Part shown: positions 13,311 to 62,820 of the stretch, piece after piece
How positions within the stretch are numbered: the first letter of the stretch is position 1
How the letters are laid out: each line of letters begins with the position of its first letter
Assembly (NCBI GenBank): GCA_002101205.1
Contig: LWTM01000067.1
Span: 1-64,000 of the forward strand
Direction: 5' to 3'
DNA: 64,000 nt
DNA from: Cycloclasticus sp. symbiont of Poecilosclerida sp. N
GTDB lineage: Bacteria; Pseudomonadota; Gammaproteobacteria; Methylococcales; Cycloclasticaceae
Notes under the pieces: model-generated
Seen by the model: only the letters and a program-made list of their open reading frames with translations
What the model was told of the DNA's origin: nothing
The model's database searches: none
Program-made: the position numbers and the translations under genes

Positions 13311-13386
13311 GGGTCGTTAGCTCAGCCGGTAGAGCACCGCACTTTTAATGCGATGGTCGCGCGTTCGAATCGCGCACGACCCACCA
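13311..13386 (+). tRNA. tRNA-Lys (UUU)
   Basis: 76 nt including an encoded CCA. The acceptor stem GGGTCGT pairs with ACGACCC; the D arm AGCTCAGCCGGTAGAGC is canonical; the anticodon loop CTTTTAA carries TTT; the T arm GCGCGTTCGAATCGCGC is perfect. A terminator follows at 13401. Accessory DNA starts right after, so the locus may mark an island boundary. Confidence 0.98.
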
Positions 13387-13710: not shown

Positions 13711-13794
13711 ATATAACGCCCAGCTCACTTGACGGCAAAAGCAGAGCGTAGCGAAACGGCACTTTTGGCGGTCAAGTGCAGTGCCTTGTTATGT
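13711..13794 (-). other. attC-like integron recombination site
   Basis: Read on the minus strand the site begins with ACATAAC (outer core, 13794-13788), continues TAACAAGGCACTGCACTTGAC, and ends GGGCGTTATAT (13711). The arms CACTTGACCGCCAAAAG and CTTTTGCCGTCAAGTG pair with one unpaired base, and a second pairing lies inside. The TAACAA...GGGCGTTA ends and bulged hairpin are the architecture of integron attC sites. The stop of the GFA gene (13789-13791) lies inside the outer core, as usual for cassettes. Confidence 0.7.
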
Positions 13795-30665: not shown

Positions 30666-30829
30666 GCTTACGACTATCCTATCTTACTAAACTCGATACG
30701 ACGAACGGTCTTGTTATCGGGCTTGTCTTCTTAATAAAGAACAAAGCCATCACTCCATCGAGCTGTAACATAAGACCTTGTGTGCTGCTAAAGGTGGGTC
30801 TCAGTTTACCCGTTTTAGTTGGTTTTCTA

Positions 30830-30886
30830 ATCATACAAAGCATTCCAGCCCACCGCTAACGCGGCCGCCGAATTCTGGTGTTATGC
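30830..30886 (+). other. attC-like site, degenerate
   Basis: CATACAAAGCATTCCAGCC at the left, CGCGGCCGCCGAATTCTGG in the middle, GTGTTATGC at the right end. It lines up with 59580-59636 (CATTC, GCTGAATTCTAGCGTTATG), but its outer core is TCATAC rather than YYTAAC. A 46-codon frame starts 31 bases later. Confidence 0.5.
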
Positions 30887-56888: not shown

Positions 56889-57491
56889 CTACTTTCCATC
56901 ATCCCAGCTGTTTAAATAATTAGCCAATACATCGCCATGACAGCGTTGTGGGTTACAAAAACAGCCAAGTCGTTTTCCTGCTAGTTTATAGATTTCAGAT
57001 TTCCCATGGTTTGCAAGAAAACCATGATCAAAGTCATATTTATACTTCCTTATGGCTTCATCTCTATCATCACCATTTTCGTACATTGAGTATGGGTTAC
57101 CCCAACGTGATCCACGTCCGATATACTCGTAAAGTGTTGATTCCTTATTGTTTTTATATTGCGGTTCATTTTTTATATTTATTACACGCGTTATTGCAAT
57201 TTTAATTATCCTTAATGGGGTATTTGAATTTTCTACTACTTTTATTTCTTTAGGGAATTCTTCACCATCATCAAATATGATTGCATGCGTAATATCTTTA
57301 ACATTCCAATTAGATTTTCTTATCAAATCCGCATTTGTATTATCATTTAAGTATGCGTCAATGAAACCGTTTGGATCATCAGGGTAAATCACTGAGTAAT
57401 TATCAGTCTTTTCGATAATACGAGAAACCTTTCTACTGAACTTACTGAAACATTGTAAGTTAGGTGGGTAAAGAATTAGAATATTATTCAT
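56889..57491 (-). CDS. DUF4326 domain protein
   Basis: 200 residues. The N-terminal half (MNNILILYPPNLQCFSKFSR, then an NADLIRKSNWNVKDITHAII region) looks like a small alpha/beta fold of unknown type. The C-terminal half is DUF4326: YEYIGRGSRWGNPYSMYENG, DDRDEAIRKYKYDF and LAGKRLGCFCNPQRCHGDVL, with a Cys/His cluster that could bind metal. Such domains are common in phages and accessory DNA; no reaction known to me. The stop touches an attC-like core. Confidence 0.7.
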   Translation of the reverse strand: MNNILILYPPNLQCFSKFSRKVSRIIEKTDNYSVIYPDDPNGFIDAYLNDNTNADLIRKSNWNVKDITHAIIFDDGEEFPKEIKVVENSNTPLRIIKIAITRVINIKNEPQYKNNKESTLYEYIGRGSRWGNPYSMYENGDDRDEAIRKYKYDFDHGFLANHGKSEIYKLAGKRLGCFCNPQRCHGDVLANYLNSWDDGK

Positions 57492-57524: not shown

Positions 57525-58760
57525 GCCGGCGGTGTAACCCAACAAATCCGCATTAATTTTGTTATAATGCATCATGCAAAAATCATTCTCAACACAGTCC
57601 AACCTCTTCTTTTCAACCGCTGACTTAGACCACCCTATTATTCATAGTCTTGATGACACAGAAGCCTTGTTGGAATGGTCTGAAATAGAAACATTGTTCA
57701 CCTCAATCTATGCTTCTAACACAGGGCGTCCCGTTACCCTTTACTGACGCTATTTCGAAGCTTGCTGCTTGGCGTATGGTATCAACTATCCGATGTGCAG
57801 TTGGCCCAGTGTTTATACAGGGACTTATTGTTCCGTAAATTCTGCCGTTTGGAGCTTGGTGGTGACGTTCCAGAAGCATCGACTATAGGGCGGTTTAGAA
57901 CGCAGTTGGTTGAACACGGTCTATGGGGCCGATTGCCAGGTGAGACCAATTGTCAGCTTGAAGTAAAAAACATCATCATGAAAGAGGGTCGCATTAATAT
58001 TATTGACAAGGTGAATGGCGCAGTTAGAGAAGGTGCCCTGGGGCACGCAACACCGATAGAGGCCGCACAGTCTGGTGCAGGCAATGGCAAAGATGGAAAG
58101 CCGACAAAAGACCCTGACGCGGGTTGGCGTGTTAAGAATGATAGTCGGGGTAACAAAAAGTCCACCTATGGTTTTTCTGTTCATACCGGTGTTGATGAAG
58201 ATGGCTTTATTCACCGTCAAAGTGTAACGCCAGGTAATGTTCACGATTCTCAAGAGCGTGACACCTTATTGTTAGGTGGTGAGAGTGCACTGTATGCGGA
58301 TGCTGCTTATAGCTCACAACAGACCTGAGATAAGTTAGCTAAGTTCGGCATGGCCGATCAAGTGCAACACAAGGGGTGTCGAGGTAAACCTTTATCAGAA
58401 CAAGAGCAGGCCCGCAACAAAGCCATTGCGGTCACTCGAGCAGGTAGTGAGCGACCCTTTGCCACGTATAAGAGACATTATCGGCTTGCCAGAACACGAT
58501 TTATGGGGCTGGGCAAAAATGCAACCGTTTATGGTTTAGCTGCCATGGCTGCGAACATTCGCAAAGGAGCTAAGTTCTTAACGCTCTACGGTATACAGAG
58601 CCAAGTTATGCGGGGTAACTGTGTCAAAAATCAGGGAAAAGCACTGAAAACAGGAATGAAATCAATTTAACGCATTAAATGACCTAAAAACAGCGTAATT
58701 GACGGAAAAATAGGAGCGGCCTCATGAAGGTGGATAAAGTTGTTGGTTACACCTCCGGCA
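57525..58760 (+). mobile_element. IS5-family element, inactive
   Basis: Terminal inverted repeats GCCGGCGGTGTAACCCAACA (57525) and TTGTTGGTTACACCTCCGGC (58740-58759). Transposase from ATG 57574 (TADLDHPIIHSLDDTEALLE) is shifted near 57735-57760, continues LLGVWYQLSDVQLAQCLYRD and GGDVPEASTIGRFR, then STYGFSVHTGVDEDGFIHRQ and TPGNVHDSQ, is cut by TGA at 58326-58328, and resumes AVTRAGSERPFATYKRHYRL to about 58670. Two lesions make it inactive. The short direct repeats expected at insertion were not seen. Confidence 0.85.
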
Positions 58761-58952: not shown

Positions 58953-59168
58953 CTATTCGTGATAATCGACGAACTGTTCTTGTATGATTCGGTTGAAACG
59001 TTCACAGACGGCGTTCATCTTGGGCGTGCTTGGGTACGTCCAAAGATGCGTTATATGCGCATCGGATAACAAGGAAACAAATTCGCCCTTGAACTCACTG
59101 CTGTTGTCGGTAAGGAAGTAAGAGAGGAATAGCCAAACACATACTTCCCCATGTTCCATAATAGCCAC
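58953..59168 (-). pseudogene. IS481-like transposase internal fragment
   Basis: Reads SYFLTDNSSEFKGEFVSLLS (second catalytic Asp), ITHLWTYPSTPKMNAVCERF, NRIIQEQFVDYHE, then joins the istB-like RPQ-VYL piece. Same element as bases 2-253. Both ends missing. Confidence 0.75.
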
Positions 59169-59628
59169 TTCAGAGGAGTCCTATCTGAATCAAAAAGAGC
59201 AGAATATGATGAAGCTGTGCAGTTATTAGCACTTAGTCAAATTAGCTTAAAATCATTATTTGCTGAAGGCGCCGCAGGCATGGGTAATGTAAAAAGCAAA
59301 ATGAAGGATGCCACACGTGGAAAACTGCAAAACAAATTATTGCAAATGCTAACGTAATGAAATTAGAGAGAGAACAAAAGAAAAAACAGAATGGCATCTT
59401 GCGCCAAATATGCTCACTGATTGGGGCAAAGTTGATTCACCTGAAGGGGCTATATTTGCTGTTGCCGTTGAGCGCATAGATGGCGCAGACGGCAAAGCCA
59501 TTTTATCGGTTAATGAATTTGATGGAAGAGAACAAAAAAGGCTATTAGAATTAAAGAAAAGTATAATATCAACTAAAACACTTAACAAATCATTCTCGCC
59601 GACCGCCAACGTGGTCGCTGAATTCTAG
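59151..59628 (+). pseudogene. Broken hypothetical gene before attC
   Basis: Frame one (59151-59357) reads VLSESKRAEYDEAVQLLALS and ends LLQMLT. Frame two (59353-59628) reads EKTEWHLAPNMLTDWGKVDS, PEGAIFAVAVERIDGADGKA and stops at TAG 59626-59628 inside the attC. They probably were one protein before a shift near 59350. No family recognised. Confidence 0.45.
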
Positions 59629-59636
59629 CGTTATGT
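59580..59636 (+). other. attC-like integron recombination site
   Basis: 57 bases: outer core ACTTAAC (59580-59586, fits RYYYAAC), then AACAAATCATTCTCGCCGAC, a short loop, GTGGTCGCTGAATTCTAGCG and GTTATGT (59630-59636). The order TAACAAxxCATTCxxGCCGAC ... GCxxAATTCxAGCGTTA closely follows the short attC of aadA-type cassettes as I remember it. The stop of the preceding frame lies inside it. Confidence 0.75.
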
Positions 59637-59699
59637 GTTTTAGCGGATTCCAGCACAAATGGTATAATTCGTCTTTAATTTTTTCAAAAAGTGTTTTTG

Positions 59700-60542
59700 A
59701 TGATGGAATGTGAACAAGATCATATGGCAAAGGCTATTAAAAGCGTTATATCAGAATTAATGGAGGGCGTTATGGATAAAGTGCTTGTCCGGGACCCATT
59801 CATCAAAGAAAAACATCATTCAGCTAAACCTCTTTATGCTGCATTAGTTCCTGATGAAATATTTAAAGGTTCACATTTCGAGAGAAGGTTTGTTACCCCG
59901 TTTGGTGGCGTTTGGGAAAAGCTCGCTAGCGTAGTCGCTATAGAAACTCATAAACATTGCGAGATGGGTTCTACTATTACAGGGACAGTAAGTAGTGAGA
60001 GCTTAAGACGAATCCAAGAAGTCCTAAATAGGTTAGAACATAAAGAAAAAGGAAAGGAAAAGGTTAAACCTGATTGGGCAAAGGAACTTGAATACATACA
60101 GGCAGGAGGTGGGGAATTAATATCAACCTCTGTTGTTTGTGATATTTTTGTTGATCGCGCTAAAACAGGTAAAAAATATGCTTTTGAACTAAAAGCTCCT
60201 CTGCCTAATAGTGACCAAACCAAAGTTAGCAAAGAAAAGCTTTTTAAGCTTTTGGCTATGCGACCTAAAAAAGTAGATTTTGCTTTTTATGCCTTACCTT
60301 ATAACCCCTACGGAAAGAAAGAAGATTACACGTGGAGCTTCCCCTTAAGATGGTTCAATATGCAAGAAGACAAATCTGTTTTAATAGGCGATGAATTCTG
60401 GGAATTAATTGGCGGAGAAGGTACTTATGGAAAGTTTATTAAAGAAGTGAACCTTTTAGGAAAAGAATACAAAGACCGAATTTATAAAGAATTTTTAGGC
60501 ATTGAAGCACCGGAATACCTTGATGAAGGAGATCTTAAATAA
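59700..60542 (+). CDS. TdeIII-like type II restriction endonuclease
   Basis: 280 residues from ATG 59700 (GTG 59691 and ATG 59724 are alternatives); TATAAT at 59663-59668. PLYAALVPDEIFKGSHFERR then TPFGGVWEKLASVVA fits the TdeIII family, whose type member is reported to cut GGNCC. The catalytic site is CDIFVDRAKTGKKYAFELKA (D...ELK, a PD-(D/E)xK variant). The TAA overlaps the methyltransferase start (TAATG), so the two are coupled. Promoter inside the segment just after attC. Confidence 0.8.
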   Translation: MMECEQDHMAKAIKSVISELMEGVMDKVLVRDPFIKEKHHSAKPLYAALVPDEIFKGSHFERRFVTPFGGVWEKLASVVAIETHKHCEMGSTITGTVSSESLRRIQEVLNRLEHKEKGKEKVKPDWAKELEYIQAGGGELISTSVVCDIFVDRAKTGKKYAFELKAPLPNSDQTKVSKEKLFKLLAMRPKKVDFAFYALPYNPYGKKEDYTWSFPLRWFNMQEDKSVLIGDEFWELIGGEGTYGKFIKEVNLLGKEYKDRIYKEFLGIEAPEYLDEGDLK

Positions 60543-62140
60543 TGCGTGTAAAAAAATCATGTTTTTCATTTATAGATCTTTTTTCAGGCATAGGGGGGTT
60601 TAAAATAGCCTTAGAAAATAATGGTGGGGAAAGTTTAGGTTTTAGTGAAATAAATAAAGATGCCATTGCGTCTTATTGTGAAAATTTTACTGAAAGTCAT
60701 ATGAATAATTTTGGTGACATTACTAAAATTAAAGACCTCCCTCCACATGACTTATTAACAGCAGGTGTTCCATGTCAGAGCTGGTCTATTGCAGGTAGAA
60801 ACTTGGGGTTTGATGATGATAGAGGACAACTTTGGAATGATACCGTCTATTTACTTCAACAGTCAAAACCCAAAGCATTTATTTTTGAAAATGTAAAAGG
60901 TCTGGTTGACCCAAGAAATAAAAATAATCTTTTATACATCTTAGATAGAATTAAAGAGGCTGGGTATTATGCAAACTATCATATTATCAACTCTCAGGAC
61001 CATGGTGTTCCACAAAGCAGAGTACGGGTTTATATTATAGGCTTTAGAGATAAGGAGTATTTTAATAAATTTCATATTCCTCTAACGTCTAATGAGAAAA
61101 TAAATCTTGCAGATATTTTGGGTATTGAAACACCAAATATCCCACCATTAAAAGAGAATTTACAACAAGATTTGTTTGCTGAGCCCATCCCTGTAAAGTC
61201 TATGAGCTTATCTAGTAAAAATGGTCTAAATGATTATTTCTTATTCAATGATTTACGAAATGGCAATACAACTATTCACTCATGGGATATTATAAAAACG
61301 AGTAAAAGACAAAAAGATATTTGCTATCTTCTTTTGAAAAATAGAAGAAAAAGTGCTTATGGTAGATTAGATGGAAACCCTCTTTCACTTGATCATTTTC
61401 AATCCATTGATTCGACAATTTCCATAGAAGAGTTAAATCAACTGGTTCAGCTTAAAATTTTAAAAACCGAAGAGTATTTATTTACTCTAAACAATAGTTA
61501 TAAAGCTGAGCTATCTGAAATAGAACAAAAACTGTTTGAATATATAAATAAAAACCAATTTGTAATTGATGACCTTAAAGTAAATCGAGAATTAAAACGC
61601 AATACAATGCCCATTTTAAAAACGATTGAAAGCCTAAAGAAAAAGGGGGTTATTAAGTGTACTGAGATTCGCTATGAATTTAAAAATACAAAAATTAGCA
61701 CGGGACTCTTTGGGGTAAACAGGATATTTTTACCCAGCTCTGATATATTTCCTACATTAGTTGCAAGTAACTCTAATGACTACATTACTTTAGAAACTCT
61801 AACCCCTACGAATATAGACGATTATAAAAAGAAGTTTATTGAAGAAGTCTATAAAACAGGGAAATATCGAAAGATCACAAAAAGTGAAGCTTGCTTAATA
61901 CAAGGTTTCCCTAAATCTTTTGCATTGCCAGAATCGAGGGCAAGGTGGATGAAACTTATAGGTAATAGTGTTTCAGTTCCTGTCATAGAGGCTCTGTGTA
62001 AAGCGATTTTAGACACCGGTGTGTTTAAACAAGAAGAAACACATCAAAAAAACCCCCAGCAGACAGCCATAAGCGGCACGCCTTTTGCTGCAAAGGTCGC
62101 ACCACTTACGTCTGCCGCTGATTTTGGCGTTATGTTTTAA
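60542..62140 (+). CDS. DNA (cytosine-5) methyltransferase
   Basis: 532 residues, longer than the usual 330-420. Motif I FIDLFSGIGGFKIALENNGG, motif IV GVPCQSWSIAGR with catalytic Cys, motif VI FENVKGLV, motif VIII QSRVRVYIIGFR, motif X LIGNSVSVPVIEAL. An insert of about 150 residues (FLFNDLRNGNTTIHSWDIIK... to ...LKKKGVIKCTEIRYEF) sits before the target-recognition region and has a winged-helix look; this could carry autoregulation (inference). Protects host DNA from the coupled endonuclease. Confidence 0.93.
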   Translation: MRVKKSCFSFIDLFSGIGGFKIALENNGGESLGFSEINKDAIASYCENFTESHMNNFGDITKIKDLPPHDLLTAGVPCQSWSIAGRNLGFDDDRGQLWNDTVYLLQQSKPKAFIFENVKGLVDPRNKNNLLYILDRIKEAGYYANYHIINSQDHGVPQSRVRVYIIGFRDKEYFNKFHIPLTSNEKINLADILGIETPNIPPLKENLQQDLFAEPIPVKSMSLSSKNGLNDYFLFNDLRNGNTTIHSWDIIKTSKRQKDICYLLLKNRRKSAYGRLDGNPLSLDHFQSIDSTISIEELNQLVQLKILKTEEYLFTLNNSYKAELSEIEQKLFEYINKNQFVIDDLKVNRELKRNTMPILKTIESLKKKGVIKCTEIRYEFKNTKISTGLFGVNRIFLPSSDIFPTLVASNSNDYITLETLTPTNIDDYKKKFIEEVYKTGKYRKITKSEACLIQGFPKSFALPESRARWMKLIGNSVSVPVIEALCKAILDTGVFKQEETHQKNPQQTAISGTPFAAKVAPLTSAADFGVMF

Positions 62141-62189
62141 AACGAGTAATTCATGAGCCAGATTTTTGCAACACTTCTCACAGGCATGA

Positions 62190-62612
62190 TTGATAGCTGG
62201 CGTCACATCATGGGTAACTATCCCGTTATCGCTGAGGCAATTTCGCACACAAAAATGGTGGGGGATGAAGGCAGACGCTTATACTAAAATTTTGGATGCC
62301 CTTCATAAATCAAAGAAATTCTCAAACGAACATTTGCAAGCAATGTGTAAAACAAAAGAGGTTTTTGAGGAAAGAGATAAGGCATTGCGGAAACTATCTA
62401 AAGATTCACATGAAAAACTATTAAGAGCCGTTGATGTAGGCGCCTTTCTTCTATGCGAAGAAGCTGTAGATGTTTTGAAAGATTACGAGCGTCAAACTGA
62501 TGATTTACATAAATCTGAAACTTGGCTTGAGTATATTGATGCTGTCAATACCATTAATCACCGCACACTAACAAACCTCATGCTAATTGCACGGAAGGAT
62601 TTAAAGCAATAA
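62190..62612 (+). CDS. Hypothetical protein, N-terminally altered
   Basis: KWWGMKADAYTKILDALHKS, the central NEHLQAMCKTKEVFEERDKA and KLLRAVDVGAFLLCEEAVDV, RTLTNLMLIARKDLK. A known type of accessory protein usually has a membrane helix before the KWWxxKxxAY block; here the N-terminus (from 62190) is not hydrophobic, and a separate frame from ATG 62154 (MSQIFATLLTGMIDSWRHIM) precedes it, so the 5' end is probably mutated or fused. Stop TAA (62610-62612) touches an attC core. Confidence 0.55.
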   Translation: MIAGVTSWVTIPLSLRQFRTQKWWGMKADAYTKILDALHKSKKFSNEHLQAMCKTKEVFEERDKALRKLSKDSHEKLLRAVDVGAFLLCEEAVDVLKDYERQTDDLHKSETWLEYIDAVNTINHRTLTNLMLIARKDLKQ

Positions 62613-62613
62613 A

Positions 62614-62676
62614 ACATAACAAAAACATCAAAGCGGCGCGCTAAAAGGCGCGTGCGTCTTATATAAAACGTTAAGT
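62614..62676 (+). other. attC-like integron recombination site
   Basis: ACATAAC (62614-62620), AACAAAAACATCAAAGC, the hairpin GGCGCGC-TAAAAG-GCGCGTGC, then AAAACGTTAAGT with GTTAAGT (62670-62676) a perfect GTTRRRY core. It starts at the stop codon of the preceding gene. With the site at 59580 it brackets the restriction-modification genes. Confidence 0.6.
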
Positions 62677-62717
62677 GGGAAATCACAGTATCCACCCAAA
62701 CTGAATTTGAGTCTAAT

Positions 62718-62764
62718 AGGGGATTATAAAACACAAGCATTTACTCGTTTTAATTTACAGGCTC
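62718..62764. repeat. IS256-type terminal repeat, solo
   Basis: 47 bases matching 36666-36712, the right end of the IS256 remnant, with three differences; same orientation, no transposase nearby. Confidence 0.8.
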
Positions 62765-62820
62765 AACTCATTTGGTAAGTTATGCATTGTTGGTAACAGA
62801 GGTCTCTCATAAAGTGTTTT

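Follow-up and report, generated by a model that had tools for sequence, protein, structure and literature searches.

Defence systems are frequent cargo of integrons (PMC12409362), and restriction-modification (RM) systems in particular are stated to be known as integron cassettes in a passage of PMC9892861 that cites Buongermino Pereira 2020 and Ghaly 2021; an RM review (PMC12707154) cites Vaisvila 2001, a paper on a super-integron. According to the part of a review that deals with the work of Darracq, Littner et al. (PMC12409362), type II RM systems usually have a reduced size when they are carried by integrons. A functional integron integrase (IntI) can mobilise CALINs, which form a defined class, in trans (PMC12444791). 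As to the host genus of the present DNA, taken to be Cycloclasticus, the literature search yielded no paper devoted to its integrons, and these appear to be little described.

In the present study a segment of a 64-kb window (the whole stretch of DNA that was analysed) was investigated, in which an earlier note had placed an RM system between two attC-like sites. As in known RM integron cassettes, the restriction and modification genes stand together and point toward attC; unlike the reduced type II systems reported in the passage mentioned above, however, both RM proteins are unreduced and match non-integron relatives in approximate length. We consider it very probable that the segment is a small integrase-less array, in which the remnant of an upstream cassette, attC site A, a TdeIII-like RM operon, a damaged site B, a small ORF and attC site C follow one another, and that the RM operon was captured as a cassette. 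Both RM cassettes and CALINs have been described before, and the segment is a good example of them, not a new mechanism; it enlarges the view of integrons as anti-phage stores by a two-gene RM cassette that is near-complete and unreduced.

Genes and attC sites of the segment

The following features were found (window positions, strand):
59160-59625 (+): remains of the upstream cassette gene(s), comprising 59160-59354, a DUF6694-like fragment, and 59356-59625, a frame whose stop lies inside A
59580-59636 (+): attC site A, R'' 59580-59586 ACTTAAC, R' 59630-59636 GTTATGT
59631-62129 (+): putative RM cassette, 2499 bp, between the R' cleavage points of A and B as placed by the GTT core
59660-59668 (+): weakly supported extended -10-like element TGGTATAAT ahead of the endonuclease gene
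59691-60542 (+): intact ORF for a TdeIII-like type II restriction endonuclease of 283 aa, counted from GTG 59691
60542-62140 (+): DNA cytosine-5 methyltransferase, intact ORF
about 62041-62135 (+): site B, damaged attC-like, R''-like ACATCAA 62041-62047, L'-R' arm CCGCTGATTTTGGCGTTATGT 62115-62135
62130-62670 (+): putative second cassette of 541 bp, bounded by the R' cores of sites B and C, contains the third ORF
62190-62612 (+): third ORF, 140 aa from TTG
62614-62676 (+): attC site C, R'' 62614-62620 ACATAAC, R' 62670-62676 GTTAAGT
62717-62766 (+): end of a dispersed insertion-sequence-like element, at the junction with mltF

The DUF6694-like fragment matched PF20404 with an E-value of 7e-4, under the curated cut-off, and the position of the adjoining stop codon within an attC is usual for cassette genes. 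Between A and C, the TdeIII-like endonuclease and the C5 methyltransferase claimed in the earlier note were recognised by PF09520 (7e-70, homology beginning near residue 13) and PF00145 (5e-79, with the HhaI/HaeIII methylases as relatives in the PDB), and a PF09520 endonuclease with an adjacent DNA methylase makes a TdeIII-family type II RM system. Because both genes are intact, the pair is most likely an ordinary type II RM system that still works, in which the methylase would protect and the endonuclease would cut unmodified DNA; its presence may make the array costly to lose. The promoter-like TATAAT said to follow the first site was indeed located at 59663-59668, with TG before it, but as a promoter it is weak: the consensus scan called none at 59660-59668, and the region displayed no promoter excess. 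The third ORF, whose stop codon (62610-62612) was described as touching the second site and lies one base from it, may be truncated at its start or carry a frameshift there, with ATG 62153, in a different frame, as a possible true start. No Pfam or PADLOC family was found for it, and a distant homologue occurred in one other of 369 genomes of the class.

The attC sites were investigated with two structural models. The first (R1) was trained on attCs from plasmid class 1 integrons and from IntI loci of other gammaproteobacteria, with no member of the host genus; in its training alignment 91% of cells pair, compared with 24-41% in slid controls, and the covariation score was 0.41, compared with at most 0.09 for slid structures. 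With filters off, R1 gave A as the top match in the window (18.6 bits) and C as the third (12.8 bits); it missed a strong long site at 13711-13794, so that this list is incomplete. Since R1, without the genus, was weak on A and C, a second model (R2) was built from 96 R1 matches in other genomes, congeners included and this genome left out. At E<=10, the covariance model R2 reported exactly three matches in the 64 kb, namely a minus-strand site at 13711-13794 (47.1 bits), C (35.2 bits, E 3e-5) and A (27.7 bits, E 0.0012). The check by a structural attC model, which had been asked for, thus came out in favour of both sites with a model trained outside this genome, and the ACTTAAC...GTTATGT and ACATAAC...GTTAAGT cores were present in the same orientation, as claimed.

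Both sites display the architecture of attC, with inverted cores RYYYAAC ... GTTRRRY, pairing between the L'' and L' arms, and bases that stay extrahelical when the strand is folded; the R' of A is one position off GTTRRRY, as is the case in other attCs of the genus. C, for which the genus alignment has 15 members, shows 90-91% identity over 58-60 bp to attCs near intact IntI in two congeners, and more distant copies of its type were found in others of the genus. A, which forms the end of the upstream cassette and the start of the RM cassette, has siblings in the same genome (C73:85709-85765, C71:24124-24180). A and C are real integron attC sites, far above chance, and are predicted from their sequence to be IntI recombination substrates.

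Elsewhere in the window, the site at 13711-13794 is a strong solitary attC about 330 bp from a tRNA gene (13311-13383), and an A-type attC with a damaged R'' arm lies at 30829-30886 (+). A first structure-only attC scan was rejected as too permissive (60 matches vs 35-54 in shuffles), a second heuristic scan served solely to gather training sites, and an Rfam search returned nothing but a tRNA. Xer/dif modules were set aside as the identity of the sites on general knowledge, dif sites being much shorter and without attC-like architecture.

The earlier note had seen no integrase, and this was borne out: the contig carries no integrase match, and a complete IntI was not found in this genome, in which just decayed fragments, all on contig C77 and two of them with stops, were detected. 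Other weak IntI matches were ordinary tyrosine recombinases, which were also matched in genomes without integrons. An intact IntI could be absent from the incomplete assembly (77 contigs, 98% complete); within the genus, 13 of 18 members had an IntI match above the cut-off. About 18 attC sites are spread over many contigs of this genome. Of a complete integron, with its functional intI and adjacent attI, IntI fragments only are present, and the array, with an A-C distance of 3.0 kb and one of its three sites (B) damaged, is a CALIN.

On contigs C53, C71, C73 and C76 (L187, L182, L132, L127, L183) several different attCs continue at the R' point into one identical sequence, TTAGTACTCTAAATTTTCC. 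Three of these share more than 100 bp past it, one linked stretch encodes a small helix-turn-helix-like protein, and the joined stretches are possibly a repeated cassette.

Site B and the number of cassettes

Site B, which the earlier note had missed, is located at the 3' end of the methyltransferase ORF, ahead of the third ORF. Its right arm is intact, of the genus type and almost the same as that of several attCs in this genome (CCGCTGATTTAGGCGTTAGT, CCGCTTATTTTGGCGTTAGAT); it is unique in the 64-kb window, where 0 were expected, and scored 8.3 bits by itself with R2. The left arm aligns, with small indels, with the genus-type ACATAACAAAAAAA...CCAGC..GAC, and the bottom strand of B folds with -22.9 kcal/mol (z -3.9 vs shuffles). 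Of the two cores of an attC, R' is present with its arm, whereas R'' reads ACATCAA where the family has ACATAAC, so that its AAC core is absent.

Because this damaged attC-like site stands between the methyltransferase and the third ORF, a single three-gene cassette is unlikely as the origin, and the segment is best read as two cassettes by origin, a TdeIII-like RM cassette of 2.5 kb and an ORF cassette of 0.54 kb. As in gene cassettes, gene(s) point toward a single attC between R' cleavage points, which were placed by the cores; taken alone, the RM cassette is closed by the damaged B. In the congener arrays L062 and L063 neighbouring attCs are spaced by about 0.3-1.8 kb, and 2.5 kb is therefore large for a cassette.

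The alternative, in which the 3.0 kb from A to C are a single three-gene cassette and B is a mere methylase tail with a terminator-like hairpin, was judged unlikely. It would fit that neither R1 nor R2 found B as a full attC, that the R'' core is lacking and that a terminator-like hairpin overlaps the site. However, the near identity of the right arm to attCs of this genome, which is not expected in 64 kb, and the alignable left arm argue against it, as does the position of B just past the end of methylase homology and just before a separate small ORF. On the reading as two cassettes, these may now be mobile only as one 3.0-kb A-C unit, because B is without its R'' core. Of the earlier proposal of a three-gene cassette of 3 kb, the RM system between attC sites was thus retained and the single cassette was abandoned as the likely origin, although it could describe what moves today.

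Most relatives cease to resemble the methyltransferase from roughly residue 500-505 onward, and its last 30 residues or so are therefore attC-derived, read from B; the loss of the R'' core may have let the frame run through the site. Possible, if rather doubtful, is a further scenario, in which decay of the middle attC would have fused two cassettes into a composite that is mobile only as a whole, with the RM system as an addiction module holding a relic array in an integrase-less genome. The damaged B offers a test case for such cassette fusion through attC decay.

The operon outside integrons and its present setting

In one genome scan 45 relatives of the endonuclease were found in many phyla (57-83% identity, the four best homologues 79-83%), and the endonuclease-methylase pair occurs without attC borders in Thiotrichales, Methylococcaceae, Mariprofundaceae, Campylobacteraceae, Cytophagales and others. 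In the closest relatives the methyltransferase follows the endonuclease in the same order as here, and DNA homology spans window positions 59713 to 62051/62054. The TdeIII-family operon of Methylococcaceae GLR68 (L139), for instance, has this gene order outside integrons, with 83% identity for the endonuclease and 73% for the methylase. R2, applied to 421 kb flanking relatives of the cassette genes, gave one match, and no attC was found near these relatives bar that on an Anaerolineae contig. On this contig (L169) an attC-like site of 25.7 bits at 2599-2670 lies 2.3 kb upstream of an endonuclease relative. Plasmid and viral collections contained no endonuclease relatives.

The relatives outside integrons thus lack the attC borders, whereas here they are present, and the occurrence of the operon in unrelated bacteria without such borders argues that it was captured; the availability of the operon in both states makes for a clean capture comparison. 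Relatives without the borders had been named beforehand as what would refute a cassette. Such relatives do exist, but capture is not refuted by them, homology ending near the cassette ends. Among the relatives, at the distances searched, the RM operon was not found in another integron, and cassette transfer was not seen directly. We infer the following course of events. An RM operon from outside integrons would have become a cassette whose terminal attC is of the genus type, and an integron integrase would have recombined this cassette into the array. Later the integrase gene of the host would have decayed, B would have lost its R'' core, and a rearrangement by insertion sequences would have left the array beside mltF, from where only an integrase acting in trans could move it, preferably as the 3.0-kb unit from A to C.

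With regard to the last of these steps, mltF directly abuts a convergent lipase gene in the five relatives inspected, whereas here mltF (window 62820) and the lipase gene (on another contig, G000:C77:182078-182770) are apart, and one dispersed repeat has a copy beside each of them. This repeat, the element end at 62717-62766, has 7 further copies or part copies in the genome, one of them about 77 bp from the lipase gene. On the other side of the segment, transposase remnants (57762-58670) and a repeated end (58953-59111) were found. Most likely, the array came to rest beside mltF via an insertion-sequence rearrangement. That A and C merely resemble attC by chance and that insertion sequences or another kind of transfer brought in the RM operon, with no link to an integron, is strongly disfavoured and highly improbable: RM operons move by many routes and insertion-sequence debris lies on both sides of the segment, but the scores of A and C, the identity of C genus-wide, the siblings of A, the shared orientation and the placement of each site after an ORF end all stand against it. 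Near the RM cassette, on the minus strand of the window (56889-57491), lies an ORF with a minimal SLOG domain and DUF4326.
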